Source: Paenibacillus sp. H1-7
Lineage (GTDB): Bacteria; Bacillota; Bacilli; Paenibacillales; NBRC-103111
DNA: 64,000 nt
Direction: 5' to 3'
Assembly: GCF_022354825.1 (NCBI RefSeq)
Contig: NZ_CP031168.1
Span: 3,969,501-4,033,500 of the forward strand
Position numbers and translations under genes: made by a program. Below the pieces are notes generated by a model. The model was not told the origin of the DNA and did no database searches. It saw nothing but the letters and a program-made list of their open reading frames with translations. Shown piece by piece: positions 23,320 to 58,716 of the stretch (position 1 is the stretch's first letter; each line of letters begins with the position of its first letter).

Positions 23320-23345
23320 CAAGCGCCCCGAGAGGAGAGGTCATC

Positions 23346-38977: not shown

Positions 38978-41314
38978 ATGTTCCGAATGAGCGGTACGTT
39001 TCGCTCCCGCACTTATTTTATCCGTATCCTGCGAACGATTACTTTGGTATTGATCATGTTTCTGTTGATTTTGTCATCCGTACTGTATGTGTTCTCCCGA
39101 AGCATGGCGCTGGAGATGCAGCAGGATGCGAGCCGTAAGGTACTAAACCAGATCAGCTACAACATCGATAACTTAAATGAAACGGTTCGCAGTCTGATGA
39201 TGACGGCTTTCAACGATCGCGATATGACGGTACTGATGAACAATCAAGATATTGAGGTGTTCGAGCTGTACAATAAGCTGAATAAGCTGGATCTCTTCGT
39301 CAGCTCCAATCCTTTTATCCAGTCGATTTGGATCTATAACGGGTTTAACGGCTGCTACTACTCGACCGCACTGAGTGCTATGGTTTCCTGTAAAGAACTT
39401 GACAGCGCAAGCAATCTGTTGAAGCCGTACATCGTCCAGCCCGCAACGCTGACCAAGCTGACGCTGCTGCCGATCGGTCCGAGCTTCTCCGAAGCGGGCA
39501 AGCAGGAGCTGTTTGCTTATTTTATGTACAAAAATTTGGATGCTTATGTTCCAGGCAGCAGCGTGCTGATGATGTCAATTAAAGCGAAGTGGCTATTCGA
39601 TAATATTCGAACGCTGAACGAGCTAGGTGAAAATTCGCTTGGCGATCTGTTCATTATGGATTCAGCCGGTAAGGTGTACAGTCCTGGCGAGAACGGACAA
39701 ATTTGGGATGACAGCATTTATAATGCCATCCGGTCGGCATCCTCTCCATCGGGATATTTAATGATCGGTGAAGGAAGCGAGAAGCAAATCGTCACCTATA
39801 TGACTTCCAAATTCAACAACTGGAAAGTCGTAAGCGTTCAGCCGCATGACAAGGTTTTTGGCAAGGTCAACAAGCTGTTTACGATGATGGTCATTATTCT
39901 CGGAATATTTATTATACTTGCTTTCGTGGTGTCGTCTCTTGCGACAGTACGGCTGTATCGTCCGTTCGGAAGGCTGATGAGCAAAATTCAAGGATTGCAT
40001 GAGGAGCAGATGGGGCTGTCGCCGAAGGATGAGCTGAGTATGATGTCGTCCGTGTATGACCGGATTGTGGAAAAGATGAATCAGCTGCAGGCTGATCATT
40101 CCGGGAATCATGAAATCTGGCAAAGCTATCGGCTGCGCCGCCTCATTACCGACAGCGCCGCCGTTTCTGAGGAGGAATTCGCAGAGTGTTTGCCAACTGC
40201 AGCTTCTGCAGCGGAGGGAAGACAATTCATTGTAGCAGTGTTAAAACTCGACGATTATGAGACCTTTAGGCGGACGCGCAGCGAACGAGAACAGAAGCTG
40301 TGCCGCTTCGCCGTCACCAATATTGCAGGGGAGCTATATGGCGGGCATTTTCCGAACGTTCCGGTAGATATGAAGAGCGACCATGCCGCTGTATTGCTCA
40401 TGGTTCCTCCCGGGGATGCCGAAGCGGCTTACGCGGAGCTATCCCGGTTGACCAACTTGGTGATGAGCACAGTTGATAGCTACTACAACTTGTCGCTAAC
40501 TGCGGCGTTCAGCGAGCCGTTCAACGATATCAGGAACACAGCTGAGAGCTACGAACAGGCGTTGGCTTACAGTCTTTACCGGATGGTGTTCGGCAGAATG
40601 TCCGTAATTACGCCTTCTCATATTGCCTTCCGTCAGGGCGTCGACGCCTATGAAATCCCTTATGAGATGGAAAAGAAGCTGGTTGAAGCGATCCGATCGG
40701 GAGAGTCGACAGTCGTACATACCCGTATGGATGCGATTTTCGAATATATGGCGGAGTTGAGCCCGGATAATGTTGACTATGCCATTTTGCACTTACTTAT
40801 TATTTTGCAGCACACGGTGAGGGAAATTAGCTCCAACAAGCTGAAGAACGTGGCTGTAGATTTGCGTGCTTACAACCATCGCATGCTGGAGCAGGAGACG
40901 CTGGCGGACGTGCGCCGTCTTATGAACGATCTCCTGCATGAAGTTACCGAACAGATCCAGTCGGCCGCAAAGGGCAAGAACGAGTATCTGATAGAAGCTG
41001 TGAAGGAGATCGTGGAGAACAATTACGCAGATGAAAACCTGAGCTTGCAGTATATTGCATCGGCGCTGCGAATGTCTGCAGCTTACCTTGGCCGGTTTTA
41101 CCGTAACAGCGAAGGGCAGTCTGTGGCAGATTACATCAACGAAGTACGGCTGACGAAGGCGCAGGATATGCTGAGTGCCGGTAATGACAGCATCGTGGCG
41201 ATCATGAAGAACGTTGGTTTTACGAACGAAAGTAACTTCTTTAAGCATTTCAAGAAAAAGACGGGCGCTACGCCTGGTGAATACCGATTGAAAAAAGCAA
41301 ATCCATTGCAATGA
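38978..41314 (+). CDS. Membrane-bound AraC-family regulator (YesS-like)
   Basis: One-component transcription activator, 778 aa. A first membrane helix (about 18-40) is followed by an extracellular sensor of about 260 residues and a second helix (about 305-328). A cytoplasmic linker comes next, then a C-terminal AraC double helix-turn-helix (SLQYIASALRMSAAYLGRFY and FTNESNFFKHFKKKTG). The architecture matches B. subtilis YesS and RhgR-type regulators of pectin loci. It probably senses a saccharide outside and activates the operon 280 nt downstream. GGGGAGGAGG precedes the ATG. Confidence 0.92.
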   Translation: MFRMSGTFRSRTYFIRILRTITLVLIMFLLILSSVLYVFSRSMALEMQQDASRKVLNQISYNIDNLNETVRSLMMTAFNDRDMTVLMNNQDIEVFELYNKLNKLDLFVSSNPFIQSIWIYNGFNGCYYSTALSAMVSCKELDSASNLLKPYIVQPATLTKLTLLPIGPSFSEAGKQELFAYFMYKNLDAYVPGSSVLMMSIKAKWLFDNIRTLNELGENSLGDLFIMDSAGKVYSPGENGQIWDDSIYNAIRSASSPSGYLMIGEGSEKQIVTYMTSKFNNWKVVSVQPHDKVFGKVNKLFTMMVIILGIFIILAFVVSSLATVRLYRPFGRLMSKIQGLHEEQMGLSPKDELSMMSSVYDRIVEKMNQLQADHSGNHEIWQSYRLRRLITDSAAVSEEEFAECLPTAASAAEGRQFIVAVLKLDDYETFRRTRSEREQKLCRFAVTNIAGELYGGHFPNVPVDMKSDHAAVLLMVPPGDAEAAYAELSRLTNLVMSTVDSYYNLSLTAAFSEPFNDIRNTAESYEQALAYSLYRMVFGRMSVITPSHIAFRQGVDAYEIPYEMEKKLVEAIRSGESTVVHTRMDAIFEYMAELSPDNVDYAILHLLIILQHTVREISSNKLKNVAVDLRAYNHRMLEQETLADVRRLMNDLLHEVTEQIQSAAKGKNEYLIEAVKEIVENNYADENLSLQYIASALRMSAAYLGRFYRNSEGQSVADYINEVRLTKAQDMLSAGNDSIVAIMKNVGFTNESNFFKHFKKKTGATPGEYRLKKANPLQ

Positions 41315-41513: not shown

Positions 41514-41598
41514 ACAGTACCCCATGGAGGGGAAGTTCGGGATAATACAATCAACCCGTAAACAGCCCTACTCTTATGTCAAGCGAGGTGATATCAAG

Positions 41599-42600
41599 AT
41601 GCATCAAAATAATAGCGTCAACATCGGAACATCGGAACAGAGTCATACAAAAAAGGGCGATACAGCAACGAAAGGAATTGTCTTCAAATTACGGATGGAA
41701 TGGAAGCAATTTCAGAAAAACCGCGAATTGTTCATTCTGACCGTTCCTGCGCTCCTATTTAAGTTTATTTTTTCTTACTTGCCGCTGGTAGGCCTGATCA
41801 TCGCATTTAAAAAGTTCAATTATGCCAAAGGGCTGTGGGGCAGCGAGTGGGTCGGACTGAAAAATTTCTCGTTTTTTTTCGCTTCGGATAACGCCTTCCG
41901 TATTACACGCAATACGATTTTGTACAATATCAGCTTTATTGTGCTGACAACAGTCATTGCAGTAACGCTGGCCATTCTAATGAATGAATTGAGCAAAAAA
42001 TGGTTGAAGCTGCATCAAACCGCGTTGTTTCTGCCTTACTTCTTATCTTGGGTTGTCGTCAGCTACGTCACACTCGGATTCCTTGATAACGGCAGCGGTT
42101 ATCTCAACCAGCTGCTGCAGCAGTTCGGTGCGGCACCGGTAAAATGGTACCAAGAAGCAAAGTACTGGCCGTTTATTCTTATTCTTGTTCATTTATGGAA
42201 GTCGGTAGGCTTCTCTGCGCTCATTTATTATGCAGGTATAATCGGCATCGACTCGAGCTATTACGAGGCGGCCCGGATCGATGGCGCGACCCGACTGCAA
42301 ATGATCCGCCGCATTACGATTCCGCTGCTTACTCCGCTCATCATCATTTTATTTATCGTCGCTGTCGGGCAAATGTTCCGCGCGGATTTCGGCTTGTTCT
42401 TCTTCGTGCCGAATGACACAAGCTTTCTTTACGCGACGACGGATGTCATTGACACCTACGTGTACCGCTCGCTTCGTGTCGTCGGTGACATCGGCATGTC
42501 TTCCGCTATCGGCCTGTATCAATCGGTTGTCGGACTTGTGCTCGTGCTTGCCGCGAATTATGTAGTAAAAAAAATCAACTCGGAAAACTCGCTATGGTAG
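41599..42600 (+). CDS. ABC saccharide importer permease, LplB type
   Basis: Inner-membrane permease, 333 aa, of the LplB/YtcP-type carbohydrate importers. An N-terminal cytoplasmic tail of about 50 residues is followed by six helices. The EAA loop reads YYEAARIDGATRLQMIRRI. The start at 41599 has GAGGTG 8 nt upstream. It is the first gene of an operon that runs through 53058. Partners are the permease at 42616 and the lipoprotein at 43564; no ATPase gene is present. Confidence 0.93.
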   Translation: MHQNNSVNIGTSEQSHTKKGDTATKGIVFKLRMEWKQFQKNRELFILTVPALLFKFIFSYLPLVGLIIAFKKFNYAKGLWGSEWVGLKNFSFFFASDNAFRITRNTILYNISFIVLTTVIAVTLAILMNELSKKWLKLHQTALFLPYFLSWVVVSYVTLGFLDNGSGYLNQLLQQFGAAPVKWYQEAKYWPFILILVHLWKSVGFSALIYYAGIIGIDSSYYEAARIDGATRLQMIRRITIPLLTPLIIILFIVAVGQMFRADFGLFFFVPNDTSFLYATTDVIDTYVYRSLRVVGDIGMSSAIGLYQSVVGLVLVLAANYVVKKINSENSLW

Positions 42601-42615
42601 GAGGTGAACCAATCT

Positions 42616-43515
42616 ATGAGTGCTTCAGCTGCATCCAATAGCAAACCAACGCTTGCTCAGCATCTGATCAACTTGTTCTTTTGCGTATTGACGATCGGGA
42701 TGGTCATTCCGATGGTGCTTGTCATATCCATTTCGCTATCGGAGGAGAAATCGCTCGTACTGAACGGGTATCGCCTGCTCCCCGAGAAGTTCAGCCTAAT
42801 GGCGTACGAACTCATCTTACAAAGCCCCGGACAGCTGCTGAAGGCGTATGGTGTGACCATCTTTGTCACGGTAGTCGGGTTGATCGCCAGCCTGCTTATA
42901 ACCTCCATGGTCGCTTACTCGATATCGAGAAGAGATTACCGGTATCGGCGGATCACGACGATGTACGTGCTGTTCACGATGCTGTTCAGCGGAGGTCTGG
43001 TGCCATTTTATATATTGGTCACGCAATATTTGCATCTGAAGGATACGATCTGGGCGCTGATCGTGCCGTATTTGGTCAGTCCGTTTTATGTCCTGATTAT
43101 GAAGGGTTTTCTGGAAAAGCTGCCGGGGGAAATCTTTGAATCGGCCAAAGTGGACGGGGCGAGCGAATGGCGCATTTTCTTTCGCATCGTGCTTCCCTTA
43201 TCTACTCCTGCATTAGCGACCGTAGGCCTGTTCATAGCATTCGCTTATTGGAATGACTGGTGGCTCGGACTGCTGTTCATCAACGATCAGGATCTGGTTC
43301 CTCTGCAGCTACTGCTGTACCGGATTATGAGCACGATCGAATTTATGACGAACAACATCAATACGGTTAATGTACAAATTGACCTGTCACAGTTTCCTAG
43401 TCTATCGGCCCGAATGGCGATGGCCGTGCTTGCTGCAGGACCGATGATGTTCGTATTCCCGTTTTTTCAGCGGTTTTTCGTGGCCGGACTGACCGTTGGC
43501 TCGGTTAAGAGCTAA
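42616..43515 (+). CDS. ABC saccharide importer permease, LplC type
   Basis: Second permease of the importer, 299 aa, six helices. The EAA loop is IFESAKVDGASEWRIFFRIV, and the C-terminus FFVAGLTVGSVKS is typical of LplC/YtcP permeases. The ATG at 42616 follows GGAGGTGA. An in-frame GTG at 42604 lies inside that site and is rejected. Confidence 0.93.
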   Translation: MSASAASNSKPTLAQHLINLFFCVLTIGMVIPMVLVISISLSEEKSLVLNGYRLLPEKFSLMAYELILQSPGQLLKAYGVTIFVTVVGLIASLLITSMVAYSISRRDYRYRRITTMYVLFTMLFSGGLVPFYILVTQYLHLKDTIWALIVPYLVSPFYVLIMKGFLEKLPGEIFESAKVDGASEWRIFFRIVLPLSTPALATVGLFIAFAYWNDWWLGLLFINDQDLVPLQLLLYRIMSTIEFMTNNINTVNVQIDLSQFPSLSARMAMAVLAAGPMMFVFPFFQRFFVAGLTVGSVKS

Positions 43516-43563: not shown

Positions 43564-45072
43564 ATGAATCGATTTGCGTCAACCACATGGTCTCGTACGT
43601 TACTTGCCGGTCTCAGCGCATCCTTATTGTTAGCCGGGTGCAGCAGTGGCTCCGGGGGTGCAGGAACGAAAGAAGCGGGGGCGGATGGAGACGGCGGACT
43701 GAAGCCGGTCCAGTTGTCCTGGTATTACCCTGCGACCGCCGGGGTTCCGGCCGATCTGAAGACGGTGGAGGAAGCGGTTAACAAAATTACGAAAGCCCAA
43801 ATTAATGCAACCGTTAAGCTGAATGCCGTGTCGTCCGGCGACTACAATCAGAAAATGAACACGAGCGTCGCGTCCGGGGAAGAGTTCGATATTTTATGGA
43901 CATCCAACTGGAACTTCGATTATGTGCAAAATCAGAGTAAGGGTGCCTTCATTGCGCTTGATGAACTGATCGACAAATATGCGCCGACGGTTAAGAAGAG
44001 CATGCCTGACTTTGTATGGGAAGCGACGAAAATTGATGGCAAAATCTATGGCCTTCCCAATTATCAGACCGTGACGAACAAAGAGGGCTTCGTGCTGCAA
44101 AAACGGTATCTCGACAAATACAATATCGATCCGTCGCAGCTGAAGAAGATAGAGGATATCGAGCCGCTGCTCGCTAAACTGAAGGATAATGAGAAGGATG
44201 TTATTCCGTTTATGATGGACCGGAAAGGGAAGTTCGGCAACATGCTGCGGATGTATAATCTGGAAAGCGTGATCAATGGCATTGCCGTCATTAATTTGAA
44301 CAACCCGGATAAAATTCTGAACATGTACGACATCCCAGAATACAAGAAATATCTGGATCTCGTGCGTGCCTGGAATACCAAAGGCTACATTAACCAGGAT
44401 GCAGCAACGCTGAAGAATGGCAACGATTACACTAAGGTCGGTAAAACGGCGGTCAGCTATCATAACGTGCTGAAGCCGGGCGGGGAGCAGGAGTCCAAGG
44501 TATCGTCGGGAGGACTGGATCATGTATACGCTCCGATAACCGATGTCTATACGGGAACGAACACGATCATTACAACGCTGCAGGCGATTAGCCGTACTTC
44601 GAAAAATCCGGAGCGTGCGATGATGTTCCTTAATTTGGTCAATACGGATAAAGAACTGTACAACTTGTTATCGTTCGGCGTCGAAGGCAAGCATTATACG
44701 AAAAATGCCGACGGCACGATCAAAATCAATAAGGACGCGGGCTACGTAGCGGCCGATTGGGTGTTCGGCAATGTGTTTAACGGCATTCCCATCGAAGGTA
44801 AAGCGCTTGATATTTTCGATAAGACGAAGAAGGAAAACGAATCCGCCAAGCCGTCGCCTATTATGGGCTTTAAGTTTAAGGCGGATCCGGTAGCTGCCGA
44901 GGTCGCAAACATTAATGCGGTTGTAGACGAGTTCGGGCCGGGTCTTAATACCGGTATCGTTGATCCAGGGAAGCTCGGTGAATTTCAGGATAAGCTGAAA
45001 AAAGCCGGCATGGAGAAAGTGATTGCTGAGGCGCAAAGGCAATTGGACGAGTGGAAGAAAACGAAAAAATAA
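43564..45072 (+). CDS. Saccharide-binding lipoprotein, LplA type
   Basis: Extracellular solute-binding protein, 502 aa, with a lipobox LAGC at about residues 23-26. It is larger than family-1 binding proteins. It ends in a DUF3502-like domain (about 430-500, FKADPVAAEVANINAVVDEF) that marks LplA-type binding proteins for complex oligosaccharides. GGGAGGG precedes the ATG. A GC-rich hairpin without a U tract follows it. Confidence 0.93.
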   Translation: MNRFASTTWSRTLLAGLSASLLLAGCSSGSGGAGTKEAGADGDGGLKPVQLSWYYPATAGVPADLKTVEEAVNKITKAQINATVKLNAVSSGDYNQKMNTSVASGEEFDILWTSNWNFDYVQNQSKGAFIALDELIDKYAPTVKKSMPDFVWEATKIDGKIYGLPNYQTVTNKEGFVLQKRYLDKYNIDPSQLKKIEDIEPLLAKLKDNEKDVIPFMMDRKGKFGNMLRMYNLESVINGIAVINLNNPDKILNMYDIPEYKKYLDLVRAWNTKGYINQDAATLKNGNDYTKVGKTAVSYHNVLKPGGEQESKVSSGGLDHVYAPITDVYTGTNTIITTLQAISRTSKNPERAMMFLNLVNTDKELYNLLSFGVEGKHYTKNADGTIKINKDAGYVAADWVFGNVFNGIPIEGKALDIFDKTKKENESAKPSPIMGFKFKADPVAAEVANINAVVDEFGPGLNTGIVDPGKLGEFQDKLKKAGMEKVIAEAQRQLDEWKKTKK

Positions 45073-45085: not shown

Positions 45086-45110
45086 AGCGGGCGGCGAAAT
45101 GCCGCCCGCT
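45086..45110 (+). other. Intercistronic hairpin
   Basis: AGCGGGCGGC (45086-45095), loop GAAAT, GCCGCCCGCT (45101-45110): a perfect 10-bp stem without a T run. Such hairpins after binding-protein genes often protect the upstream mRNA 3' end, which favours binding-protein over enzyme expression. Confidence 0.6.
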
Positions 45111-45141: not shown

Positions 45142-47028
45142 ATGACAGGTATCGATCAATTGTCGTTGCGTCAGCTTAAAAATGCGCTGGAACATCCCGC
45201 TGGTCAGGAGAAACCGTTGTTCCCGGAGGCTGCAAACAAGGAATATTGCCTTCGCAGTAATCGGGACCCTCGTTGTGAGGCCGTATGGGATGATATTCGC
45301 AAGGCGGGGGAGTCGTTTACAGCCGTTCCTGTGGAGCTGCTGCCGTATTCGGAGTTTACACTATTTCATCGAACCGGCGACCGAACCCGGTATGATGATA
45401 AATATTTCGACCGTCGACGCCGGCTCTGCGTGTTAGCCATGCTGGCGCTTGCAGACGAGGATGCAGAACGCTGGATCGCTCCGCTCCAGGATATCATCTG
45501 GGCCATTTGTGACGAATATACATGGGTCATTCCGGCTCATGTCGGGCTGTATCATAATGAGTATCCGAACGGCATTTGGGATCAGCCTGCACCTCCGCGA
45601 GAGACGGTGGACTTATTCGCCGGGGAGACGGGGCTTGCGCTTGCCGAGATCGTCGGTTTATTGGAGCCGAAGCTGGAGCCATGGATTGTCCATCGGGTAC
45701 GTGAGGAAGTGGAGCGGCGACTGCTGAGCGTGTATTTCGCCGATCCGGCGCCGCAAAATTGGGAGCTGAAGACGAACAATTGGCCGGCTGTCTGTGCAGC
45801 TTGCATCGGCTGTGCGGCAATGTGGCTCGTCCGCGACCCGGAGAGGCTTGCCGGAATGCTATGGCGGGCGATCCATGCTTTGCGGCAGCACTTGCAGGGC
45901 TTCGATGCACAAGGGGCAACGCCGGAAGGAGCCGCTTACTGGCAGTTTGGTTTCGGTTACTACGTTTATTTTGCGGAGATGATGGCTGAACGCACTGCCG
46001 GTCAGATCGATTTGTTGGCTGGAGAAAAGCTGCGCCGTATCGCCTGCTTCCCGCGCAGCTGCATGCTGACCGGCAGCCAGGTGATCAATTTCTCCGATGC
46101 TCCTGCGGAAATGGATTATCAGCCGGGGCTGTACCACCGGCTTCACAGACGGTTTCCGGAGGCAGCACTGCCGGATCAAGCACCCGTATACGGGAGCGCA
46201 TTCCGCTCCTGGACGATGGCCAGCCGCATGCTGCTGTGGATGGAGCCGGAAGCTTCGGAAATCAACCGAGACTATGGAGTACTACCATTCGAAGACTATT
46301 ATTTTCCCGGCCATGGCTGGGTTATCAGCAAGTCGGAGGATACCGGTGGCCTTGTCGCCTTTGCAGCCAAGGGCGGGAGTAACGATGAGCCGCATAATCA
46401 TAACGACCTTGGACATTTTATCATCCATGTGTACGGCCAGAGCGTTCTGTGTGACCTAGGGGCAGGCGAGTATACTAGGCAATATTTTCAACCGGCCTAT
46501 CGCTATGCTCAGTTAACAGCCAGCTCGCACGGTCATTCCGTACCTGTCATAGCAGGTACGGGTCAGTTGGCTGGAGAACAGTATCGCGCTTCTCCGCTCG
46601 GATACGAGCAAACGGATGGAAGAGTCGTATACAAGATCGATCTGACCAGGGCGTATCCTGCCAGTACAGTGCTTGATCGGCTGCATCGTGAATTCGTATG
46701 GGAGAGGCCGCAAGCGCCGTCCGAGACGGATTATCGGCTTACCTTGCGAGATGAATGCGTCTTTACAAGCGGAGCAGAAGCCTTTGAATCCGTCTTCATG
46801 TGCAGTATACCTCCACGGCTGATGGAGCCGGGATGGGTAGCGATCGGCCCCGTTAGGATGATATACGATGCGGAACGGTTCCGCTGCCGGTTTACAGAGG
46901 AGCACTACCGGTCCATTGCAGGTGAGGAGCGTATGGCATACCGGCTTGTATTGGCTGTAATCAAGCCGTCTGCCCGAACGGTGTGTGAGGTTCAGTTTGA
47001 AGTGAAGGGGAGAGGTGAACGGATATGA
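45142..47028 (+). CDS. Heparinase II/III-family protein
   Basis: 628-aa protein with an alpha/alpha-toroid N-terminal half and a C-terminal beta-sheet domain of the heparinase II/III type. The key segment NDEPHNHNDLGHFIIH, with the conserved histidines, is at about residues 415-430, followed by DLGAGEYTR. Family members are lyases acting on uronic-acid polysaccharides or their oligomers. No signal peptide is present, so it should work on imported oligosaccharides. The ATG at 45142 follows AGGAGGAGG. It overlaps the next gene by 4 nt. Confidence 0.87.
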   Translation: MTGIDQLSLRQLKNALEHPAGQEKPLFPEAANKEYCLRSNRDPRCEAVWDDIRKAGESFTAVPVELLPYSEFTLFHRTGDRTRYDDKYFDRRRRLCVLAMLALADEDAERWIAPLQDIIWAICDEYTWVIPAHVGLYHNEYPNGIWDQPAPPRETVDLFAGETGLALAEIVGLLEPKLEPWIVHRVREEVERRLLSVYFADPAPQNWELKTNNWPAVCAACIGCAAMWLVRDPERLAGMLWRAIHALRQHLQGFDAQGATPEGAAYWQFGFGYYVYFAEMMAERTAGQIDLLAGEKLRRIACFPRSCMLTGSQVINFSDAPAEMDYQPGLYHRLHRRFPEAALPDQAPVYGSAFRSWTMASRMLLWMEPEASEINRDYGVLPFEDYYFPGHGWVISKSEDTGGLVAFAAKGGSNDEPHNHNDLGHFIIHVYGQSVLCDLGAGEYTRQYFQPAYRYAQLTASSHGHSVPVIAGTGQLAGEQYRASPLGYEQTDGRVVYKIDLTRAYPASTVLDRLHREFVWERPQAPSETDYRLTLRDECVFTSGAEAFESVFMCSIPPRLMEPGWVAIGPVRMIYDAERFRCRFTEEHYRSIAGEERMAYRLVLAVIKPSARTVCEVQFEVKGRGERI

Positions 47029-49016
47029 TGACAGATAAGGATGGGGCGTTCTCCAAGGTGGCTGTAGACGCTGGGGATGGTGCAGGATCGGCTAGTACCA
47101 GGCTGCTGCCGAAGATTGAGGCTACTAGCGGCTGGAATCCGCCTAAATGGGCGCTGATGCAGCGACTTCTGCTGGATACGTTGAACGATGCTGCGGTCGA
47201 ATTCGTTCAGCGGTATACGCATCCGGACGGGACACTGATTTGGCGGGATAACTGGCCGGGTATGGACGGTTCGGACGATCCGTATGAGGCGTTCATGAAT
47301 TTGGCCCTGCTTTATGCGCTTGGCGGCAGTGAGGAAGTTCATGCTCTGGCGCTGAAAATGTGGGACGCCATCACTTGGCAGTGGACGCAGTACGGACAAA
47401 TTCATAATGAATTCGACCGGTACTACGATTGGATGCATCATGGCGAGGGCTATTTATATTTATATTTCCTTGGACTGACCGATCCGCATTTGCCCAAACA
47501 GGTGCAGCGTTCCATCCGGTTTGCCGGGATGTATACCGGTGACGACCCGGAGGCGTTGAATTACGATAAAGAAAAGAAGCTGATCCGATCCCCCATCACT
47601 GGAAGTCAGGGGCCGAGATTTACGATGACGGAAGAGGACTGGTGTACGCACCGGGGGGTGCTGGACGACTATTTGGCGCCGTTCGAGGATATTCCCGGCG
47701 TTGATTTCGCCAGCGGAAAATGCAGGTGGTCCGACGATGACGTCTATCGCGAGGTCATCCGGCTGATGAATGAACGGATGGCGCGTGGCGACGTGCCGCT
47801 CAATCTTAATGCGACCTCTCTTGTTGCGCACGCCTATCTGATCTCGGGTGAGGAGCGCTTCCGCGACTGGGTGTTAACCTATTACGCTGCATGGGAAGAT
47901 CGAGCGAGGCGTAATGGCGGCATTATGCCCGATAATATCGGACTATCAGGGGAAATTGGGGAATGTATGGACGGCAAATGGTGGGGCGGCTATTACGGCT
48001 GGCGTTGGCCGCACGGCTTTATGACGGTGATTGAGCCGCTGACGAATGCGGCGATGAACGCTGTGCTCCTCTCTGGAGACATGGCCCACCTCGAGGAAGC
48101 ACGCCGTCAGCTCGATTTGAATTGGTCGCTCGGGAAGCAGGAAAACGGCGTATGGGTCGTTCCGCACCGTCATTTCGACGCAGGATGGACGGATTATCGG
48201 CAGCCGGATCCGAAATACGCCATCCATCTGTGGACGATGTCGATGTCGGAGGAAGACCTGCTGCGGGCGAATCGGATTGAGGCTGCCCCTCACTTCCGCG
48301 AAATCGACGTTCCTTCCGTCTCCGGACGAAATCCGGTGACACGGAAAGAGACGAAGCATTTTATCGGCAATACGTATCCATGGTTCCGCTATATGCAGGG
48401 ACTGGCACCGGATTATCCCGAGCAAATTACACAAGCAGGGTACCGCCTGATCCGGCAGCAGTTGGAAAAAATGCGGTCGGAAGCCGGAAATCCGCGTAAC
48501 TGGCATTATGGTGTGTACAACACGGACGACTTGTCGAGCATCCATTTCTGGCAGGAGTATTGCCCGCTTTACTTCGAGAGTCTGGTGCAGCTGACACTAG
48601 GCGCCCCGATGCACATTTCACATGGAGGTTTGCAGCATGCTCGCCTGAGGTATTTTGATGCAGACGGACGCAGGCCCGGCCTGCCTGAGCAGGTTGGTGC
48701 GCTTGTAGAAGAGCTGTCGGCGGACAGCGCTACGGTGACGCTAGTGAATGTCGGTCTCGCGGCAGAACGAAGGGTTATCGTGCAGGCCGGCTGCTTCGGG
48801 GAGCACCGCTTGGAGCATGCGGTGTGCTATGACGAGCAGGGGAAAGAAACGGGAACGGTGCCGATTGGGAGCAAATGGGTTGAAATCAAGCTTGCACCCG
48901 GCAGCGGCATCCGGTTAAAGCTGGTAATGTCGCGCTACGTTAATGCGCCAACCTATGCCACTCCATGGTCGTCGGAGTCAGATTATGCACAGGTACTTCA
49001 CGGCAGAACAAGATAA
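47025..49016 (+). CDS. Large protein of unknown function, probably alpha/alpha-barrel
   Basis: 663-aa cytoplasmic protein without a signal peptide. Its helical repeats rich in aromatic residues (WPGMDGSDDPYEAFMNLALLY, shown in part) suggest an (alpha/alpha)6 barrel as in glycoside hydrolases and lyases. The C-terminal 120 residues look beta-rich. Acidic and aromatic residues cluster at NEFDRYYDWMHHGEGYLY and GGYYGWRWPHGF. I cannot name a family. The start overlaps the heparinase-like gene by 4 nt and follows GGGGAGAGGTG. Operon position says it processes the same imported saccharide. Confidence 0.8.
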   Translation: MMTDKDGAFSKVAVDAGDGAGSASTRLLPKIEATSGWNPPKWALMQRLLLDTLNDAAVEFVQRYTHPDGTLIWRDNWPGMDGSDDPYEAFMNLALLYALGGSEEVHALALKMWDAITWQWTQYGQIHNEFDRYYDWMHHGEGYLYLYFLGLTDPHLPKQVQRSIRFAGMYTGDDPEALNYDKEKKLIRSPITGSQGPRFTMTEEDWCTHRGVLDDYLAPFEDIPGVDFASGKCRWSDDDVYREVIRLMNERMARGDVPLNLNATSLVAHAYLISGEERFRDWVLTYYAAWEDRARRNGGIMPDNIGLSGEIGECMDGKWWGGYYGWRWPHGFMTVIEPLTNAAMNAVLLSGDMAHLEEARRQLDLNWSLGKQENGVWVVPHRHFDAGWTDYRQPDPKYAIHLWTMSMSEEDLLRANRIEAAPHFREIDVPSVSGRNPVTRKETKHFIGNTYPWFRYMQGLAPDYPEQITQAGYRLIRQQLEKMRSEAGNPRNWHYGVYNTDDLSSIHFWQEYCPLYFESLVQLTLGAPMHISHGGLQHARLRYFDADGRRPGLPEQVGALVEELSADSATVTLVNVGLAAERRVIVQAGCFGEHRLEHAVCYDEQGKETGTVPIGSKWVEIKLAPGSGIRLKLVMSRYVNAPTYATPWSSESDYAQVLHGRTR

Positions 49017-49075
49017 ATCCGGAGGCGGAACGACATGAAACAATGAATGTCAGAGGCGATAGGGAGGTAAGCGAA

Positions 49076-51268
49076 ATGGCAGCGTGCGCATACGAGGGTC
49101 TGACCGCAGCGGAGCGGGCATACGTGGAATCGCTGGAGCATGATGGTGAGACAGTCAACTTCGTAACCGACTATTTCAAGAGGTGTGGCGATCCTGAGTC
49201 AAGCGAAGCTTTGGATGTAAAGAAGACGGCTCGGTCCGCCAAGGAGGCATATCTGGACTTTGCGGAAGCGCGGTTGCGCCAATTTGCGGACTGCATCGAT
49301 GAATCTGCAGCCGTAATCGACCCGTATGACGGGAAGGAGCGGCAATTCGTCACCTCCAGCTTTGCGTTGACAGGGGCGGTGCTCCTCGCAGCCGGACGAT
49401 GCGCAGAAATCGAGGACAAGGTGCTTGCGACGATGGATAGAGCTACGCTTGCTCTGCAGTGCCGCAGCGTGCCGGACAGCCACGAGGACTTCACGACGCA
49501 TATGCTGATGCAGGCGCTGCGACTGCTCGGGGACCGGAATCAGGCATCCGGGCGCGTGGCCGAATGGAGAGAACGGCTTGCAGCGATCGATCCCGAGTAT
49601 ACCTATACGCAGGTGGAGCGCAATATGCCCCTAAGGCACGTTCGCAACTGGGCGACGTATGCGATGCTGGGCGAGCAGATGCGAATCCGTGACGGACTTG
49701 CCGAGTCAGTTGGCTTTATCGATAAATATATTTCTGCACAGCTGCCCCGGTTTACGCCAGAAGGCCTGTACCGCGATCCGAATCTCCCCGCAGCGTACGA
49801 TCTGGCGGCGCGCGACAATTTGGCGGGATTGCTGGACGAAGGCTATGCAGGACCGGCGGCGCTATTACTTGAGAAGCTGCTGCGGCGCGGGGCGCTGACC
49901 ATGCTGTTTACCCAGTCGGTCACAGGAGAAGTATCCTGCGGCGGCCGCAGCAATCAATTCTTATGGAATGAGTTGACGTTTGCCCATATTTGCGAACGCG
50001 AAGCCGTTCACTACAAAGCTGCGGGAGATCTGCACCTTGCGGGCGTGTTTAAACGAGCTGCACGCCGCGCCATGGACTCTCTCCGGCGTTGGGCGGACAT
50101 GACGGAGGTGCGCCCGGTGAAGAACCGCTTTCCGCCGGGAAGCCGCGCAGGCTACGAGCTCTATGCGTTCGACGCCAACTATTTACTGTATGCCGGCAAA
50201 ATTGCTGCTTCCTGCTACATGCATGCGGACGATGATATCCTGGAGCGGCCTGCGCCCTGCGACCTCGGCAGCTATGTGCTGAGCTTGCCATCATTTCATC
50301 GTATCTATGCTACGGCAAGCCCTGCGCAAGGGGGATACCACCTATGCATCGACACGGCGGCACAGATGGGCCAGGATGCGACTGGCCTTGTACGGCTACA
50401 TCGGTCGGGCGTTCCTGGAGAGACGGCCTTGTCGGCCGGGATCCCCGGAGCCCAAGGTGAAGTGCCTCTGGCCTTTATGCGCCCTAGAACCATAACGCCG
50501 CCGCCATGGCAGGCGGTGGCAATCGGGCCCCAGTGGCGGGATGAGCATGGTACATGGCATCGTCTGGCGGACTTCGGCCGCCGTAAGCACGAGATTTTCC
50601 ATGCAGTGGACAATCGGGGACAGCCGTTTGATCCAGAGCCGTTGGCTTGGGAGGCGGAGCTGCGGTTTGACGAGTGCCGGGTGTCAGGGCAGAGTAAAGC
50701 TCTGACCGAAGCTACGTTCGGTGGATTAGCTGATGATAAAGGAGAGCTTTGCTTTGAGGTCATCTATACTGCGCGCTCCGTAACGGTTGCGGACCCGTCA
50801 CCGGATGGAGTACCTCCCGGAGCGGGAGCGCAGGAGGTATTGCACCGTGCACAGGCAGACATATTGCCGCGTCCAGGTTGTGGGAGTTGCGCCAAGTTGA
50901 TCGAGCGTTACCGGATCAGCAAGACAGGAGTTGTTATCGACTGGGAAGTACAAAGCGCGGAAGGCGGTGAAGTAACGGCCGTCGCTGCGGTCGTACCTCT
51001 ATTGACAACGAACGGCACGGATACGTCGGAAATCGCAGTCAATAGGGACGATGGCGTTACGCTTCGATATCTTGGCAGTGAGTATTCTGTAAAGCCGGTT
51101 CAGCAAGAAACCGCGGTTGAACGGGGTGATCGACCTTGGGATCTGGAGCTGTATCCCGGTCTTGCACCAAATCGCAATGGCCATTACCGTCTGGCTGAAT
51201 GGACGCACCGGGGCGGCAGCAGCGTGAAGCTGCTGCTGCGGTTGGAGCCGCCTGCAGCGGGAGCTTAA
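49076..51268 (+). CDS. Large protein of unknown function in the saccharide operon
   Basis: 730-aa cytoplasmic protein without a signal peptide. The first 400 residues are helical, with a central GGRSNQFLWNELTFAHICE segment and KRAARRAMDSLRRW, reminiscent of alpha/alpha-barrel carbohydrate enzymes. The C-terminal half is beta-rich. I do not recognise the family. GGGAGGTAAGCGAA precedes the ATG at 49076. An ATG at 49043 is an alternative, and a three-residue frame (ATGAAACAATGA) with its own GGAGG lies at 49035. Its neighbours imply a role in breakdown of the imported saccharide. Confidence 0.78.
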   Translation: MAACAYEGLTAAERAYVESLEHDGETVNFVTDYFKRCGDPESSEALDVKKTARSAKEAYLDFAEARLRQFADCIDESAAVIDPYDGKERQFVTSSFALTGAVLLAAGRCAEIEDKVLATMDRATLALQCRSVPDSHEDFTTHMLMQALRLLGDRNQASGRVAEWRERLAAIDPEYTYTQVERNMPLRHVRNWATYAMLGEQMRIRDGLAESVGFIDKYISAQLPRFTPEGLYRDPNLPAAYDLAARDNLAGLLDEGYAGPAALLLEKLLRRGALTMLFTQSVTGEVSCGGRSNQFLWNELTFAHICEREAVHYKAAGDLHLAGVFKRAARRAMDSLRRWADMTEVRPVKNRFPPGSRAGYELYAFDANYLLYAGKIAASCYMHADDDILERPAPCDLGSYVLSLPSFHRIYATASPAQGGYHLCIDTAAQMGQDATGLVRLHRSGVPGETALSAGIPGAQGEVPLAFMRPRTITPPPWQAVAIGPQWRDEHGTWHRLADFGRRKHEIFHAVDNRGQPFDPEPLAWEAELRFDECRVSGQSKALTEATFGGLADDKGELCFEVIYTARSVTVADPSPDGVPPGAGAQEVLHRAQADILPRPGCGSCAKLIERYRISKTGVVIDWEVQSAEGGEVTAVAAVVPLLTTNGTDTSEIAVNRDDGVTLRYLGSEYSVKPVQQETAVERGDRPWDLELYPGLAPNRNGHYRLAEWTHRGGSSVKLLLRLEPPAAGA

Positions 51269-51287: not shown

Positions 51288-52190
51288 ATGGAATATACGA
51301 CATTGGGCCGAACCGGTATCCGCGTCTCGCGAATGGGACTAGGCGGGGCGCCGCTCGGGGGGGATTTCGGGGCGACGAGTGAGAAGGACGCGGTCGATAC
51401 GGTGCACGCCGCACTGGATGCCGGCGTGACCTTTTTCGATACCGCGCCGTTATACGGACGCGGTGAAAGCGAGCGCCGGCTTGGGCTTGCTCTCAAAGGC
51501 AGACGGTCCGAGGCGGTCATTGCAACTAAAGCGGTTATGAGGGGCGACGCGTATACATATGACAACACGATCAAGTCGGTGGAGCAAAGCCTCCAGCGGT
51601 TACAAACGGACTGGATCGATCTTATTCAGCTGCATGAGACGGAAGCGACGACCTTTCAGGAAGCAAGCGAAGGAACGCTCGCTGCTTTTCAGCAGTTGAA
51701 GCAGGAAGGCAAGGTACGGGCGATCGGTGCGAATGGCCGCAATGCAGATACGCTTGCTTTGTATTTACGTACCGGTCTGTTGGATACGGCGCAGACGTAC
51801 TGCCGCTATACGCTGATCGATCATACGGCGCGTGAGCTCGTATTTCCGCTTGCACGAGAATACGGTGTAGCCATAATTAATGGCAGCCCGTTGAATATGG
51901 GGGTGCTGGCGGATACGCCCGCTCCATTCTTACTAAATAATCCGGAGCTCCTTGCAGAGGCCGACCGGCGCATGGGGCTGCTGGACTTTCTACGGAAGCC
52001 GGAGCCGCACGGTCTTGTGGAAGCTGCCATGCGGTTCAGCTTGACGTGTCAGGACATCGCCGTGACATTAACCGGAGCCGCATCCCCGGACATCGTAACT
52101 CAAAATGCGGCCTATTGTGACGGCCGCGGGCTGAAGGATGAAGAGCTGCTCCGGGTGCTGGAGTTGTTTGCCGGAAAGCCGTTATATTAA
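51288..52190 (+). CDS. Aldo/keto reductase, sugar dehydrogenase-like
   Basis: NAD(P)-dependent oxidoreductase, 300 aa. The AKR tetrad is D51 and Y56 (FFDTAPLYG), K81 (IATK) and H116 (LIQLHE). It resembles galactose/fucose 1-dehydrogenase-type AKRs, which oxidise an aldose to its lactone. The next gene encodes a lactonase-like amidohydrolase, which fits an oxidative non-phosphorylating route for a deoxy sugar or galactose. GAGAGGAG precedes the ATG by 10 nt. Confidence 0.9.
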   Translation: MEYTTLGRTGIRVSRMGLGGAPLGGDFGATSEKDAVDTVHAALDAGVTFFDTAPLYGRGESERRLGLALKGRRSEAVIATKAVMRGDAYTYDNTIKSVEQSLQRLQTDWIDLIQLHETEATTFQEASEGTLAAFQQLKQEGKVRAIGANGRNADTLALYLRTGLLDTAQTYCRYTLIDHTARELVFPLAREYGVAIINGSPLNMGVLADTPAPFLLNNPELLAEADRRMGLLDFLRKPEPHGLVEAAMRFSLTCQDIAVTLTGAASPDIVTQNAAYCDGRGLKDEELLRVLELFAGKPLY

Positions 52191-52207: not shown

Positions 52208-53058
52208 GTGTATATCGACAGTCATGTTCATTTTTGGCGGCTGGCGCGCGGTGATTACGGTTGGATTAAGCCGGATAATCCCATATTGTATCAGGATTTC
52301 ACCCCCGAGCACCTGCTGCCTTTTTTAAAAGAAGAATCGGTTGGCGGCTGCATTGCCGTTCAAGCTGCTCCGACTATTGCCGAGACCGAATTTCTGCTAT
52401 CGTTAATTATTGATCATCCTTGGATTCTGGGAGTCGTCGGATCGCTGGACCCGTACTTAGTGGAGGCGGAATACATTCTCCACTATGAGCGTCTGCGTGT
52501 GAACCGAATGTTTAAAGGAGTCAGGCTGAATGGCGATCAGCTGGAACGAATCGCTCGTTACGGTGGAGAAGCCTTGCTGCGACTGAGACGCTGGGCCAAG
52601 GACAGAGTGACGGTTGATCTGCTTGTGCGCGAACATCAGCTGGAACATGCATTGACGCTGCTTCGGTTTGTGCCGGAGCTGCATATAGTGGTGAACCATT
52701 TGGGCAGCCCGCCGTATGGTGAAGAGCGTTTGAGCGAGCAGTGGGCACAGCATATGTCTGCGCTCGCGCGCTACCCTAATGTTATGGTGAAAATCTCCGG
52801 GATGATTACACCCGCAGGGAATAGACCGCAAGTGCTGCGCCCTTATGTTACACATCTTCTTGATGCATATGGGCCAGGTCGGCTTATGTATGGGAGCGAT
52901 TGGCCTGTGGCTAAGCAAAAAGGGAGCTACGCGGACGTTGTGAGGCTATGACACAGGTGCTTCCAGAGGGACTTACGGAGCGGGAATTGCATGCGATTCG
53001 TTTCGGGAGCGCTTGTGACTTTTATGGGGTTTCTGAATGCCAGGAAAATAATAGTTAA
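52208..53058 (+). pseudogene. Lactonase-like amidohydrolase, frameshifted near its end
   Basis: Metal-dependent hydrolase of the amidohydrolase-2 (fuconolactonase-like) group. It has HVHFW at the N-terminus, NHLG, and YGSDWPV near residue 235. The first frame stops after 247 aa at 52951. The next frame continues with the expected family ending (MTQVLPEGLTERELHAIRF and ACDFYGV) to TAA 53056-53058. One missing base near 52943-52948 explains the break. The start is GTG 52208 behind GAAGGGAC. The product should open the sugar lactone made by the aldo/keto reductase. Either the gene is recently damaged or the sequence has an error. Confidence 0.8.
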
Positions 53059-53304: not shown

Positions 53305-55035
53305 ATGAAGCGCGTTCCCGGCACTCACTCCATTCAAACCAAACTGACCTTGACGTTTCTGTTGATTTTGATTCCTCTTGTGGCGGTTAGTGTATTTGCC
53401 AATTATTATTCGCGAAATATCTTAAACGAGCAAATTAGCGACCGGACCGAGGGAGCCCTATTGACCACGCTGGAGTATATCGAACAGATGACCAAGAGCA
53501 TGGATCAGCAAACGCTCTTGATCGCATCAAATCCTAATATCGTGGACATCTGGAGCAACGTCGACGACCCGCTTAGACCGGATCTTCTTTATGGCATCCA
53601 TACGGTACAACAGCAGCTGTCGGCATTGACCAACGTGAACGGAGCGGTCAAGGAGGCGTACATTCTTCACGGGGAGAGCGGAAACGGGGTCTCGACACTG
53701 AAGGGCGGTGTCAAATGGCCCGGGGTCAAAGAGGAGTTCTGGTTTCAACAAACCATCGATGCAAGAGGGGGGCTCGTTACTTATGTCCCGACGGATACGG
53801 AAGTGTTCCGATCCAACTATTTAAACAATGATCTGATTTATTACGTGAGGCAGCTTGATTTTCTAAGTCATAATAAGGAGCCTAATGTCATGATTTTGGC
53901 TGTGGACAAGCTTGCTTTTCGATCGATCATTCAGCACCTTCAAACATCGGAGAATACTAACATCACTTTGTTTTATAACAAGGAGCGTGTGCTGGAAACG
54001 AATCCTTTAAATGAGGAAGTCCGCAGCAAGCCGATGTTCAACATTCAAGTTGAAAGCGATTACTGGTCCATTGAGCTGGAACAGCCGATGTCGGAGGTAT
54101 ACCATCTGTCCCGAAATCTGCAGAAGTTCACTTTTGTCATCATTGCATTTAGCATTATCTTGGCGATGTGGATCTCATGGCTTGTTTACAGCGGAATCGC
54201 GAAGCCGCTGCGCCAGCTTCTCGGCGCATTCAAGCAGTTCGGCAGCGGCAATCTGACTTTTCAGGTCGAGCATCGGAGAAAGGACGAATTCGGGCTCGTC
54301 ATGAATGGATTTAACCGGATGGCGGCCACCCAGCGCAAATTGATCGAGGATGATTATGAGAAGGAGCTTCGGTTGGCCAAGGCCGAATTTTCTCTGCTGC
54401 AATCGCAAATCAATCCGCACTTTTTGTATAACACGCTGGATACGATCTACTCGGTAGCACTGAAGAAGCAGGTGCCGGAAATTAGCGAGATGGTCATAAA
54501 CCTCGCCCGCTTTTTCAGAGTAAGTCTTGGAAAAGGCAGAGAGTCGTTCCCGTTGTCGGAGACCGTGCAGCATCTGATGTACTATATACGTGTGCAGCAG
54601 CTGCGAAAGGACCACTTTACGGTCCACATCCAATTGGCTGAGGAAACGAAGGGTATTCCTATGCTGAAGCTGATCTTGCAGCCGATTGTTGAAAACGCAA
54701 TCATTCATGGCTTGGATAAAAGCAGGGGGGAGAGCGAGCTTACTATTCGATCGCAGATGGATAGAGAAAGACTGATCGTTGAAGTAAGCGATACGGGAGA
54801 GGGGATTCCGGAGCCAGTTTTGACAGACCTGCGACATGAGCTATCCTTGATCAACAGCCAGTCGTACCAGCATGCAGAGACGCGTCAGTTCCGGCGTTAT
54901 TATGGCTTGCAGAACGTGAAGTCCCGTATCAAGCTGTATTATGGCGATGAAGCGGATCTGACTCTGGAAAGCGCCGCAGGACAAGGAACAACGGTGAAGC
55001 TGATATTACCTATTCGGAAGGAGGATCGGGAATGA
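53305..55035 (+). CDS. Sensor histidine kinase, YesM type
   Basis: Membrane histidine kinase, 576 aa. Two helices (about 15-35 and 275-297) enclose an extracellular sensor. A HAMP domain (about 298-350), a His-kinase domain with H372 in SQINPHFLYNTLD, and a GHKL ATPase domain with ILQPIVENAIIHG and DTGEGIPE follow. It would sense an extracellular saccharide and phosphorylate the regulator whose start overlaps its stop (ATGA). GAGGAGG precedes the ATG. The pair lies directly ahead of an Lpl-type importer, the usual arrangement. Confidence 0.94.
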   Translation: MKRVPGTHSIQTKLTLTFLLILIPLVAVSVFANYYSRNILNEQISDRTEGALLTTLEYIEQMTKSMDQQTLLIASNPNIVDIWSNVDDPLRPDLLYGIHTVQQQLSALTNVNGAVKEAYILHGESGNGVSTLKGGVKWPGVKEEFWFQQTIDARGGLVTYVPTDTEVFRSNYLNNDLIYYVRQLDFLSHNKEPNVMILAVDKLAFRSIIQHLQTSENTNITLFYNKERVLETNPLNEEVRSKPMFNIQVESDYWSIELEQPMSEVYHLSRNLQKFTFVIIAFSIILAMWISWLVYSGIAKPLRQLLGAFKQFGSGNLTFQVEHRRKDEFGLVMNGFNRMAATQRKLIEDDYEKELRLAKAEFSLLQSQINPHFLYNTLDTIYSVALKKQVPEISEMVINLARFFRVSLGKGRESFPLSETVQHLMYYIRVQQLRKDHFTVHIQLAEETKGIPMLKLILQPIVENAIIHGLDKSRGESELTIRSQMDRERLIVEVSDTGEGIPEPVLTDLRHELSLINSQSYQHAETRQFRRYYGLQNVKSRIKLYYGDEADLTLESAAGQGTTVKLILPIRKEDRE

Positions 55036-56630: not shown

Positions 56631-56652
56631 CCGGAGATGCTTCCGGCTTTTT
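56630..56652 (+). terminator. Terminator of the two-component operon
   Basis: GCCGGA (56630-56635), loop GATGCT, TCCGGC (56642-56647), then TTTTT. The stem starts at the last base of the stop codon. Confidence 0.8.
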
Positions 56653-56791
56653 CCCATTTTCCCGAAACAATAAGTTCAACATGACAAAATAGTTGCGAGT
56701 AAACGCAAAGAAATGGTATACGACGGAATTGGCAAAGATGCTACAGTAAATGTGAGCGGTTACACTATTGCGATTAAAGGAGGAGAACGCC

Positions 56792-57739
56792 ATGAGAGCG
56801 GCGACTACGCCAACGTCCGCCATGTCCAAAGCCGCTGCGAAACGACGCCGTCCGCTGTTGAAGTTTTGGGATTTCTACTTAATGCTAATTCCTGCGCTGC
56901 TGTTCCTGCTTGTGTTCAAGTATGCGCCGATGTACGGTGTCGTGATCGCATTCAAGGATTTCAACATTATTCAGGGGGTGATGAAAAGTCCCTGGGTCGG
57001 CCTGCAGCATTTTCGCGAGCTGTTTGCTTTTAGCGAATTTCCCCAGGTTGTCCGAAACACGCTGATCATCAGTCTCATGAAGCTCGTCATCGGCTTTCCG
57101 GCTCCCATTATTATGGCGCTGCTGCTTAATGAGCTGAGATTTGCACTATTCAAGCGTACGGTGCAAACAATAACGTATTTGCCTCATTTTATTTCTTGGG
57201 TCGTCATTGGGGGGATTACGGTCGATCTGTTGTCTCCGAACAGTGGAATCGTCAATATGGTAATACAGTCTTTTGGGGTGAAGCCGATCTTTTTCATGAC
57301 CGACGAGAAGCTGTTTCGCTGGATTCTGGTGCTAACCGACATCTGGAAGGAAGCGGGATGGGGCGCGATTATTTATCTGGCGGCCTTGCTGGGCATCAAT
57401 GAAGAGCTGTTTCAGGCGGCTACGGTGGACGGGGCCGGGAGAATGCGGCAGATCTGGCATATTTCACTGCCGGGCATTCGATCGACTATTGTCGTGCTGC
57501 TGCTGCTGCGTCTCGGGAATGTGCTGGATGTCGGCTTTGAGCAAGTGCTCGCGATGTACAACCCGACAGTGTACTCCGTCGCCGATATTATTGACACTTA
57601 TGTATTCCGGGTGGGCCTCGGCACGATGCAGTTCGGCCTAACTACTGCCGCCGGCCTGTTCAAGTCGGTGATCGGCTGCATCCTCCTGATTGTAGCGAAC
57701 TATATCGCACGGAGATTGGGGGAAGACGGCATCTATTAG
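56792..57739 (+). CDS. ABC saccharide importer permease, LplB type
   Basis: Permease of the second Lpl-type importer, 315 aa, six helices, with the EAA loop LFQAATVDGAGRMRQIWHI. The start at 56792 follows AAAGGAGGAG. The first helix begins near residue 28 (FYLMLIPALLFLLVFKY). It is a paralogue of the permease at 41599 but belongs to a separate operon behind the YesM/YesN-type pair. Confidence 0.93.
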   Translation: MRAATTPTSAMSKAAAKRRRPLLKFWDFYLMLIPALLFLLVFKYAPMYGVVIAFKDFNIIQGVMKSPWVGLQHFRELFAFSEFPQVVRNTLIISLMKLVIGFPAPIIMALLLNELRFALFKRTVQTITYLPHFISWVVIGGITVDLLSPNSGIVNMVIQSFGVKPIFFMTDEKLFRWILVLTDIWKEAGWGAIIYLAALLGINEELFQAATVDGAGRMRQIWHISLPGIRSTIVVLLLLRLGNVLDVGFEQVLAMYNPTVYSVADIIDTYVFRVGLGTMQFGLTTAAGLFKSVIGCILLIVANYIARRLGEDGIY

Positions 57740-57768
57740 CCGGAACAAAACGAGGAGGAGGTGCCGCC

Positions 57769-58635: not shown

Positions 58636-58716
58636 CCACTACCCTGACTGGGATATGTTGACGCAGGATGCTTGGCCGAATACAAAAAGGCTATCAAAAA
58701 ATGGGGGAGTGTAAGC

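Follow-up and report, generated by a model that had tools for sequence, protein, structure and literature searches.

The window analysed here, a 64,000 nt stretch of Paenibacillus sp. H1-7 (contig NZ_CP031168.1, positions 3,969,501 to 4,033,500 of the forward strand), carries an operon-like + strand run of two permease genes, a gene for a DUF3502-bearing binding protein and five enzyme genes, referred to below as A, B, C, D and E. Across several bacterial phyla, genes for the oxidation of a sugar resembling fucose accompany gene B, which encodes a member of an unnamed protein family. We tentatively propose, with confidence a little short of even, that an imported oligosaccharide of uronate and 6-deoxy-L-hexose would be dismantled in the cytoplasm by the products of A, C and B, followed by D (and E).

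Genes A, B and C had been singled out in an earlier note on this DNA as a heparinase-like protein with two large partners of no nameable family, and that lead mostly holds up. A, D and E are proteins of known kinds; for the families of B and C, the libraries searched (Pfam, NCBIfam and PDB sequences) have no model. The further suggestion of an undescribed degradation pathway was borne out in part: D, E and the neighbours of B in other genomes are enzymes of the known non-phosphorylating 6-deoxy-L-hexose oxidation, but in the searches made the activity of B, the nature of C as lyase or epimerase and the glycan consumed were undescribed. No description of B, C or the operon was found in the titles and abstract openings of the open-licence PMC literature, and one may exist elsewhere. 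B is strongly conserved, and its link to a defined route of sugar oxidation allows its activity to be guessed and put to a direct test; A, B and D provide three handles on the identity of the glycan.

Linkage of gene B to deoxy-sugar oxidation

The closest solved relatives of D are L-galactose dehydrogenases (E 5e-44), and the best other relative of D over most of its length in the host genome shows 35% identity. E scored 158.5 bits against the NCBIfam model for L-fucono-1,5-lactonase (FuconLaconase), below the cut-off of 400, and its nearest PDB entry is 4dlf (E 7e-28; titled Amidohydrolase 2), which we take to be an L-fucono-lactonase. The product of E is 247 amino acids long, owing to an early in-frame stop beyond which patchy homology resumes; its relatives typically have ∼277–294 amino acids. 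Dehydrogenase and lactonase types are both present in the operon of the window as judged by homology, with E shortened and below its cut-off.

Across 147 related genomes, with orthologues of D accepted at E ≤ 1e-60, B was found in 28 and D in 29; both were present in 24, D alone in five and B alone in four (Fisher p 9e-19, uncorrected for kinship among genomes that are not independent). In Paenibacillaceae, B and D are closely linked: D lay within 6 kb of B at 29 of the 37 B copies (at least 57% identity), and B within 6 kb of D at 29 of the 43 D copies.

A search of genome contigs gave 239 candidate stretches, 234 of them encoding relatives of B, and 80 were kept as loci: 53 from Bacillota, 18 from Actinomycetota, five Chloroflexota-type and four from Devosia. 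Genes were predicted with a simple open reading frame caller. The near-duplicate loci L064 and L065 of one genome were both counted, as were the neighbours at L077 and L095, where B itself went uncalled. Locus L102 carries the label Singulisphaera and shares its gene order with the Roseiflexaceae loci L103 and L104; it may be mis-binned and was counted as Chloroflexota-type. D (at least 45% identity) was present at 32 of the 53 Bacillota loci, together with a lactonase-type E at 20, a rhaM-type mutarotase at 19, GH88 at 13, FAH at nine, A at six and C at four. The Chloroflexota-type loci carried D in four cases and a rhaM-type gene in three. Enolase-superfamily genes of any kind occurred at eight of the Actinomycetota loci and two of the Devosia loci; at three of the former (L109, L088 and L082) L-fuconate dehydratase lies beside B, the L109 copy matching the solved enzyme at E 2e-193. 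At 12 loci lacking B (L161–L165 and L167–L173; 18–19.5 kb), D, E, the rhaM-type mutarotase and FAH were found at none.

According to an excerpt of PMC11199699, the non-phosphorylating L-fucose route employs enzymes of mutarotase, dehydrogenase, lactonase, dehydratase, 2-keto-3-deoxy-L-fuconate dehydrogenase and diketo-acid hydrolase types. D, E and the neighbours of B match the enzyme types of this pathway, known from Herbaspirillum and Xanthomonas, but here it is coupled to a lyase, GH88, B and C, and the window holds only D and the shortened E.

The 6-deoxy sugar might instead be L-rhamnose, derived from a gellan- or rhamnogalacturonan-type polymer of rhamnose and glucuronate, with B acting as a rhamnosidase-like enzyme; we regard this as unlikely, though worth serious attention. 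The mutarotase neighbouring B matches the Pfam rhaM model, and the best NCBIfam model for the FAH neighbour is 2,4-didehydro-3-deoxy-L-rhamnonate hydrolase (233 bits, below the cut-off of 500). The title of 2fv0, an entry for an unsaturated glucuronyl hydrolase (UGL), names a dGlcA-Glc-Rha-Glc ligand, and deoxythymidine diphosphate (dTDP)-rhamnose synthesis is also encoded in an Escherichia coli capsule locus with a relative of C. Gellan is cleaved by one PL33 enzyme, according to an excerpt of PMC11848413. However, the closest matches are L-galactose dehydrogenases for D and the fuconolactonase model and 4dlf for E, and the three actinobacterial loci have a dehydratase of the L-fuconate kind next to B. 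Beside these fucose-type homologies stands the close relationship of the late enzymes of the L-fucose and L-rhamnose routes, also described in the excerpt of PMC11199699. An L-fucose-type sugar remains favoured in the proposal developed here.

Two further features of the B neighbourhoods were recorded. A cluster of ∼480 amino acid proteins, X482 (L047:7546-8991 and seven other loci), lies near B in eight of the 53 Bacillota loci and has a sub-threshold GH127 match, making another unnamed toroid enzyme possible. In the actinobacterial metagenome-assembled genomes (MAGs) of loci L081, L082 and L086, the context of B differs from that in Bacillota, with neighbours that resemble, by eye, methylisocitrate lyase, citrate synthase, MmgE/PrpD and glycerate kinase.

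Gene A encodes a PL33-like lyase

The sequence of A identifies it as a PL33-like lyase, since phmmer matched it to four distinct PL33 chains (8r75, 8r6z, 8r73 and 8r70; E 2e-38 to 5e-37) and the catalytic residues are kept. PL35-type enzymes followed at E 2e-12 and weaker. The earlier description of the protein as heparinase-like agrees with this homology and with the Pfam Heparinase II/III model, which A matches barely above the cut-off (24.4 against 24 bits). An excerpt of PMC11848413 gives the catalytic residues of BtPL33HA as Asn238, Tyr291, His444 and Tyr470. A aligns with BtPL33HA and BcPL33HA over its residues 54–519 (E ∼1e-38), such that N238, Y291, H444, Y470 and F475 correspond to N213, Y266, H418, Y444 and F449 of A. 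Within the A family, N213, Y266 and H418 are conserved in 26 of 26 members and Y444 in 25. A β-elimination at a uronic-acid linkage is well supported by homology as the predicted reaction type. A differs from the PL33 enzymes in being cytoplasmic by prediction, in its position behind an ATP-binding cassette (ABC) importer and in its distant sequence. The A family is widespread in the order (106 of 147 genomes), with seven copies in the host genome; one paralogue beyond the window (36% identity; G000:C1:3675103-3677699) is immediately followed by a GH88-family gene.

Gene B encodes a predicted toroid enzyme of an unnamed family

As the earlier note had remarked for both partners of A, B matches no nameable family. 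No match was found at E ≤ 1 in Pfam or NCBIfam, nor at E ≤ 10 among PDB sequences; a 35-member profile searched against the PDB returned noise only, and the same number of family members scanned singly against Pfam gave a best E of 0.066, to scattered unrelated models. Relatives of B in Bacillota come from Paenibacillus, Cohnella, Bacillus, Neobacillus and a Ruminiclostridium MAG, and elsewhere in the genome contigs from actinobacterial MAGs, Roseiflexaceae, Thermomicrobiales and Devosia. The aligned actinobacterial, Chloroflexota-type and Devosia members are 53–57% identical to B. More distant relatives occur in 17 plasmid records, mostly haloarchaeal, where they are annotated as hypothetical proteins or not annotated.

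An AlphaFold2 model of B (29 sequences) reached a predicted local distance difference test score (pLDDT) of 84.3 and a predicted template modelling score (pTM) of 0.88. It comprises a helical toroid (residues ∼41–525) followed by a β-sandwich (541–636). The best Foldseek match was a GH76 mannanase (E 6e-5, query template modelling (TM) score 0.24), with GH127 and AGE enzymes near it and query TM scores of at most 0.32 among the matches listed. In VIA the top match was the D-mannose isomerase 5x32 (Z 14.7, 4.2 Å, 309 residues), closely followed by GH76 (Z 14.5, 5.3 Å, 291 residues), and ties at Z 12–15 extended across GH76, GH47, GH88 and AGE enzymes. With fold matches tied across several families, the model makes B a toroid of the carbohydrate-enzyme type that has no near relative in the set of solved structures compared. 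In this model B shares the α-toroid with GH76, GH127, GH88 and the AGE epimerases, but is set apart from them by the low TM scores, the modest best Foldseek E value and the lack of any family match. A β domain is also present in GH127. Twelve acidic residues are kept in 39 of 39 members (D84, D85, E88, D135, E141, D181, D222, D256, D303, D411, D545 and E593), too many candidates for the catalytic residues to be singled out. Relationships of B to C (hhalign probability 0.1%) and to A were both rejected.

Alternatively, the target of B could be the uronic acid, which would make it a uronidase or an aldobiouronate hydrolase; its link to deoxy-sugar genes would then reflect the other half of the same disaccharide. 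Each of the eight haloarchaeal plasmid regions viewed, among the 17 records matched, has at least one pectin- or uronate-type gene within 9–12 kb of B; the marker genes are pectate lyase, GH28, GH4, glucuronate isomerase, mannonate dehydratase and a pair of MR/MLE and dihydrodipicolinate-synthase types. The toroid also resembles GH88 and GH105, among many others. Such plasmids may, however, be rich in these genes (there is no background count), the four archaeal proteins measured are only 39–41% identical to B, and the strongest partner of B in bacteria is D. We consider a uronidase rather unlikely, and retain the release of a 6-deoxy-L-hexose as the proposed function of B.

Gene C has a putative lyase or epimerase fold

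C likewise had no Pfam or NCBIfam match at E ≤ 1. Only two weak local matches were found among PDB sequences (E 0.23 and 0.3), the C profile found no lyase there, and 19 family members scanned singly against Pfam gave a best E of 0.025, to scattered unrelated models. No sequence homology to the A family was detected (hhalign E 0.1, probability 0.6%).

The model of C (five sequences) is of low confidence (pLDDT 60.2, pTM 0.59). Its first 22 Foldseek matches were all two-domain lyases or dermatan-sulfate epimerase (DS-epimerase), the leading types being GAGases, PL33, alginate lyases, DS-epimerase and heparinase II (GAGase VII 8khw, E 7.6e-10; PL33, E 3e-9; DS-epimerase 6hzn, E 2.8e-8). In VIA, AGE epimerases ranked first for the toroid alone (Z 23.3, 3.5 Å, 305 residues), whereas DS-epimerase, PL35 and GAGase VII were matched across both domains: 6hzn at Z 19.8 (6.1 Å, 488 residues), 9o3q at Z 19.2 (7.4 Å, 412) and 8khw at Z 18.8 (6.9 Å, 434). 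Both programs thereby matched an α-toroid with an antiparallel β domain, in a model whose pLDDT is about 60 and lower still in the β domain. The α/α-barrel with a β-rich C-terminal domain that the earlier note foresaw for B and C is present in both models; fold comparison left B without a close fold, but placed the low-confidence model of C among the two-domain lyases and DS-epimerase rather than as an unknown barrel. The model of C resembles the PL35 GAGases, the PL12, PL15, PL17 and PL21 lyases and DS-epimerase 1 in this architecture, and C differs from them in lacking sequence or profile similarity and an invariant His, and in belonging to an unnamed family.

N191, Y232, Y241, R291 and E361 are invariant in 19 of 19 C-family members, a set that is lyase-like in its sequence pattern without the His of PL33. 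The invariant Asn, a Tyr nine residues before the second Tyr (in 16 of 19 members; 14 residues in three) and a Gly-Arg-Ser 50 residues on recall PL8, in which 16 local sequences have His nine residues before Tyr and Gly-Arg 54 residues on. Membership of PL8 was rejected, as C has Tyr at the position of the PL8 His and hhalign found no relation (E 0.52). C could be a lyase or a C5-epimerase with the heparinase-type lyase/dermatan-epimerase fold.

Of 197 related genomes, 50 contain C-family genes. In at least 13 of the 147 genomes searched for A, an A-like and a C-like match are at most 1 kb apart (G114, G116, G119, G120, G122, G126, G127, G128, G131, G132, G134, G138 and G140). The three such loci that were read (L161, L162 and L171) are A-C-GH88 trios, and A accompanies B, C and GH88 at L166 and L031. 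Twelve C-bearing loci with long flanks included an A-like gene in four cases and a GH88-type gene in five. The GH88 copy of L031 is nearest to the unsaturated glucuronyl hydrolase 1vd5 (E 1e-68), and all eight of its matches under 0.01 are UGL-type or GH88 entries, pointing to UGL rather than GH105. C is not essential to the gene set, because no match to it was found in G002, the species with the most similar B (86%).

A full-length C-family protein (profile E 2e-101), annotated as hypothetical, is encoded on an E. coli plasmid and on the chromosome of FAM21845 (L216:16159-18186 and L217:20172-22397), the latter being the only one of 5426 E. coli genomes to contain most of the query. This gene directly precedes a nucleotide-sugar dehydrogenase gene in an ABC-type capsule cluster with export, glycosyltransferase and dTDP-rhamnose genes. 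The locus supports action of C on a uronate polymer and fits a lyase and an epimerase alike. No C relative was found in a scan of viral contigs, nor in the phage records searched with the E. coli relative.

Alternatively, C could be a uronate C5-epimerase like dermatan-sulfate epimerase, converting glucuronic acid (GlcA) and iduronate units of the chain into one another and so preparing it for cleavage by A. The +1 subsite of PL33 is specific for GlcA, according to the excerpt of PMC11848413. Among the high-scoring VIA matches, that to human DS-epimerase 1 extends furthest, and the E. coli relative adjoins a nucleotide-sugar dehydrogenase gene in a capsule synthesis locus. However, lyases are also found in polysaccharide synthesis operons, as for alginate, Foldseek ranked lyases higher, and the low-confidence model does not place the catalytic residues. 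An epimerase seems to us quite unlikely, and a second lyase is the role preferred for C. If C is a lyase, it adds a lyase family; if it is an epimerase, it offers a bacterial model of the human enzyme type. In either case, one unnamed family joins glycan breakdown and capsule building in a predicted fold shared by lyases and human DS-epimerase.

Proposed pathway

From the observed gene order, the homology of A, D and E, conservation and linkage, we infer every reaction of the following scheme. The Lpl-type transporter would bring in an acidic oligosaccharide with uronic acid and 6-deoxy-L-hexose, the L-fucose type being favoured. A would cleave it by β-elimination at a uronic-acid linkage, using its PL33-type Asn/Tyr/His/Tyr centre. 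The same uronate backbone would be the substrate of C, most likely a second lyase with a different linkage specificity, or else an epimerase. Unsaturated uronyl ends would be removed by a GH88 enzyme, encoded in the operon in relatives and elsewhere in the host genome, which has 15 PF07470 matches outside the operon. B would then be the glycosidase that frees the 6-deoxy-L-hexose, D would oxidise this sugar at C1 to a lactone, and E would open the lactone, or may have done so before its truncation. In relatives, a mutarotase, a dehydratase, a short-chain dehydrogenase and an FAH-type hydrolase would complete the route.

Several observations weigh against this scheme. Eight of the 37 B copies have no D within 6 kb, haloarchaeal relatives of B adjoin pectin and uronate genes, and the rhaM and FAH names of the neighbours of B suggest rhamnose over pure fucose. 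The host genome has 11 PF01120 matches, seven of them strong and GH29-type, so a new fucosidase would in principle be unneeded. In the operon of the window, E is shortened, and there is no GH88 gene and no mutarotase gene. The rhaM Pfam model has no match in the host genome (a 33% relative of the neighbour mutarotase lies at G000 7877038), and no full-length L-fuconate dehydratase was found in that genome, the best match being 36% identical over half of the query. Finally, the model of C is weak, with much of its β domain below a pLDDT of 50, and C has no invariant His for a PL33-type Tyr/His dyad (H422 is present in 10 of 19 members).

A more far-reaching version of the proposal, which we regard as improbable, would have B found a new family of glycosidases, common to bacteria and haloarchaea, for splitting units of uronate and 6-deoxy-L-hexose, and C found a bacterial family of uronate C5-epimerases of the dermatan-epimerase fold, serving both glycan eating (with a PL33 lyase) and E. 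coli capsule building. That B is an AGE-type sugar isomerase or 2-epimerase acting on the freed sugar is very improbable: its top VIA match is such an isomerase, tied with GH76 mannanases, but scores of this size are common to several enzyme families, and B has a C-terminal β-sandwich and no AGE Pfam match.

Gene order and importer

The host genome is a single contig of 8.38 Mb. A, B and C are three real, consecutive + strand genes (Table 1), and both their coordinates and the 4 nt overlap (ATGA) of A and B, as first noted, were reproduced. That they are chance reading frames was rejected for the B and C families, whose long open frames are conserved across many genomes. A encodes 628 amino acids from an ATG preceded by AGGAGGAGG, with an alternative open TTG start at 45124; B encodes 663 amino acids; and C encodes 730 from an ATG preceded by GGGAGGT, with alternative open starts at 48965 and 49046.

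Table 1. Genes of the importer and enzyme run, with positions in the window.
Feature	Position	Strand	Basis
AraC-type regulator, 778 amino acids, first gene upstream of importer	38978..41314	+	Pfam HTH_18 / HTH_AraC / GGDEF_2
Importer permease 1	41524..42600	+	Pfam BPD_transp_1
Importer permease 2	42604..43515	+	Pfam BPD_transp_1
Lipoprotein-type substrate-binding protein	43564..45072	+	Pfam DUF3502 + SBP_bac_1; hydrophobic leader
Gene A, PL33-like polysaccharide lyase, predicted cytoplasmic	45142..47028	+	phmmer to PL33 chains; conserved catalytic residues
Gene B, (α/α) toroid + β-sandwich enzyme, unnamed family; proposed 6-deoxy-L-hexose release	47025..49016	+	No Pfam/NCBIfam/PDB match; model; linkage to D
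Gene C, putative heparinase-type lyase/epimerase fold, unnamed family	49076..51268	+	No Pfam/NCBIfam match; weak model; Foldseek
Gene D, aldo-keto reductase, proposed 6-deoxy-L-hexose / L-galactose-type 1-dehydrogenase	51288..52190	+	Pfam Aldo_ket_red; L-galactose dehydrogenase homology
Gene E, COG3618-type lactonase, shortened by in-frame stop	52208..52951	+	Pfam Amidohydro_2; 4dlf homology

The Lpl-type importer context proposed in the earlier note fits the domains of the two permeases and the binding protein upstream of A, DUF3502 being presumably an LplA-type marker. Its statement that A, B and C lack signal peptides also agrees with our results. A hydropathy scan, which is not a signal-peptide predictor, found no leader-like hydrophobic stretch in any of the three, so they should be cytoplasmic. 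The best 15-residue mean Kyte-Doolittle values near the N-terminus were −0.19 for A, 0.63 for B and 0.34 for C, compared with 1.84 for the binding protein.

Between the binding-protein gene and A there is a GC-rich hairpin of 10 pairs (45086–45110), lacking a T run, which might set different transcript levels for the importer and the enzymes. Directly downstream of the run, a second importer system (53305–60207) comes with a HAMP/His_kinase sensor and an AraC-type response regulator of its own. Further upstream in the window (23220–28780), adjacent overlapping genes look from their domains like a urea amidolyase pair: they encode a biotin-dependent carboxylase that includes carboxyltransferase A/B and C/D domains, and an amidase of the allophanate-hydrolase type.

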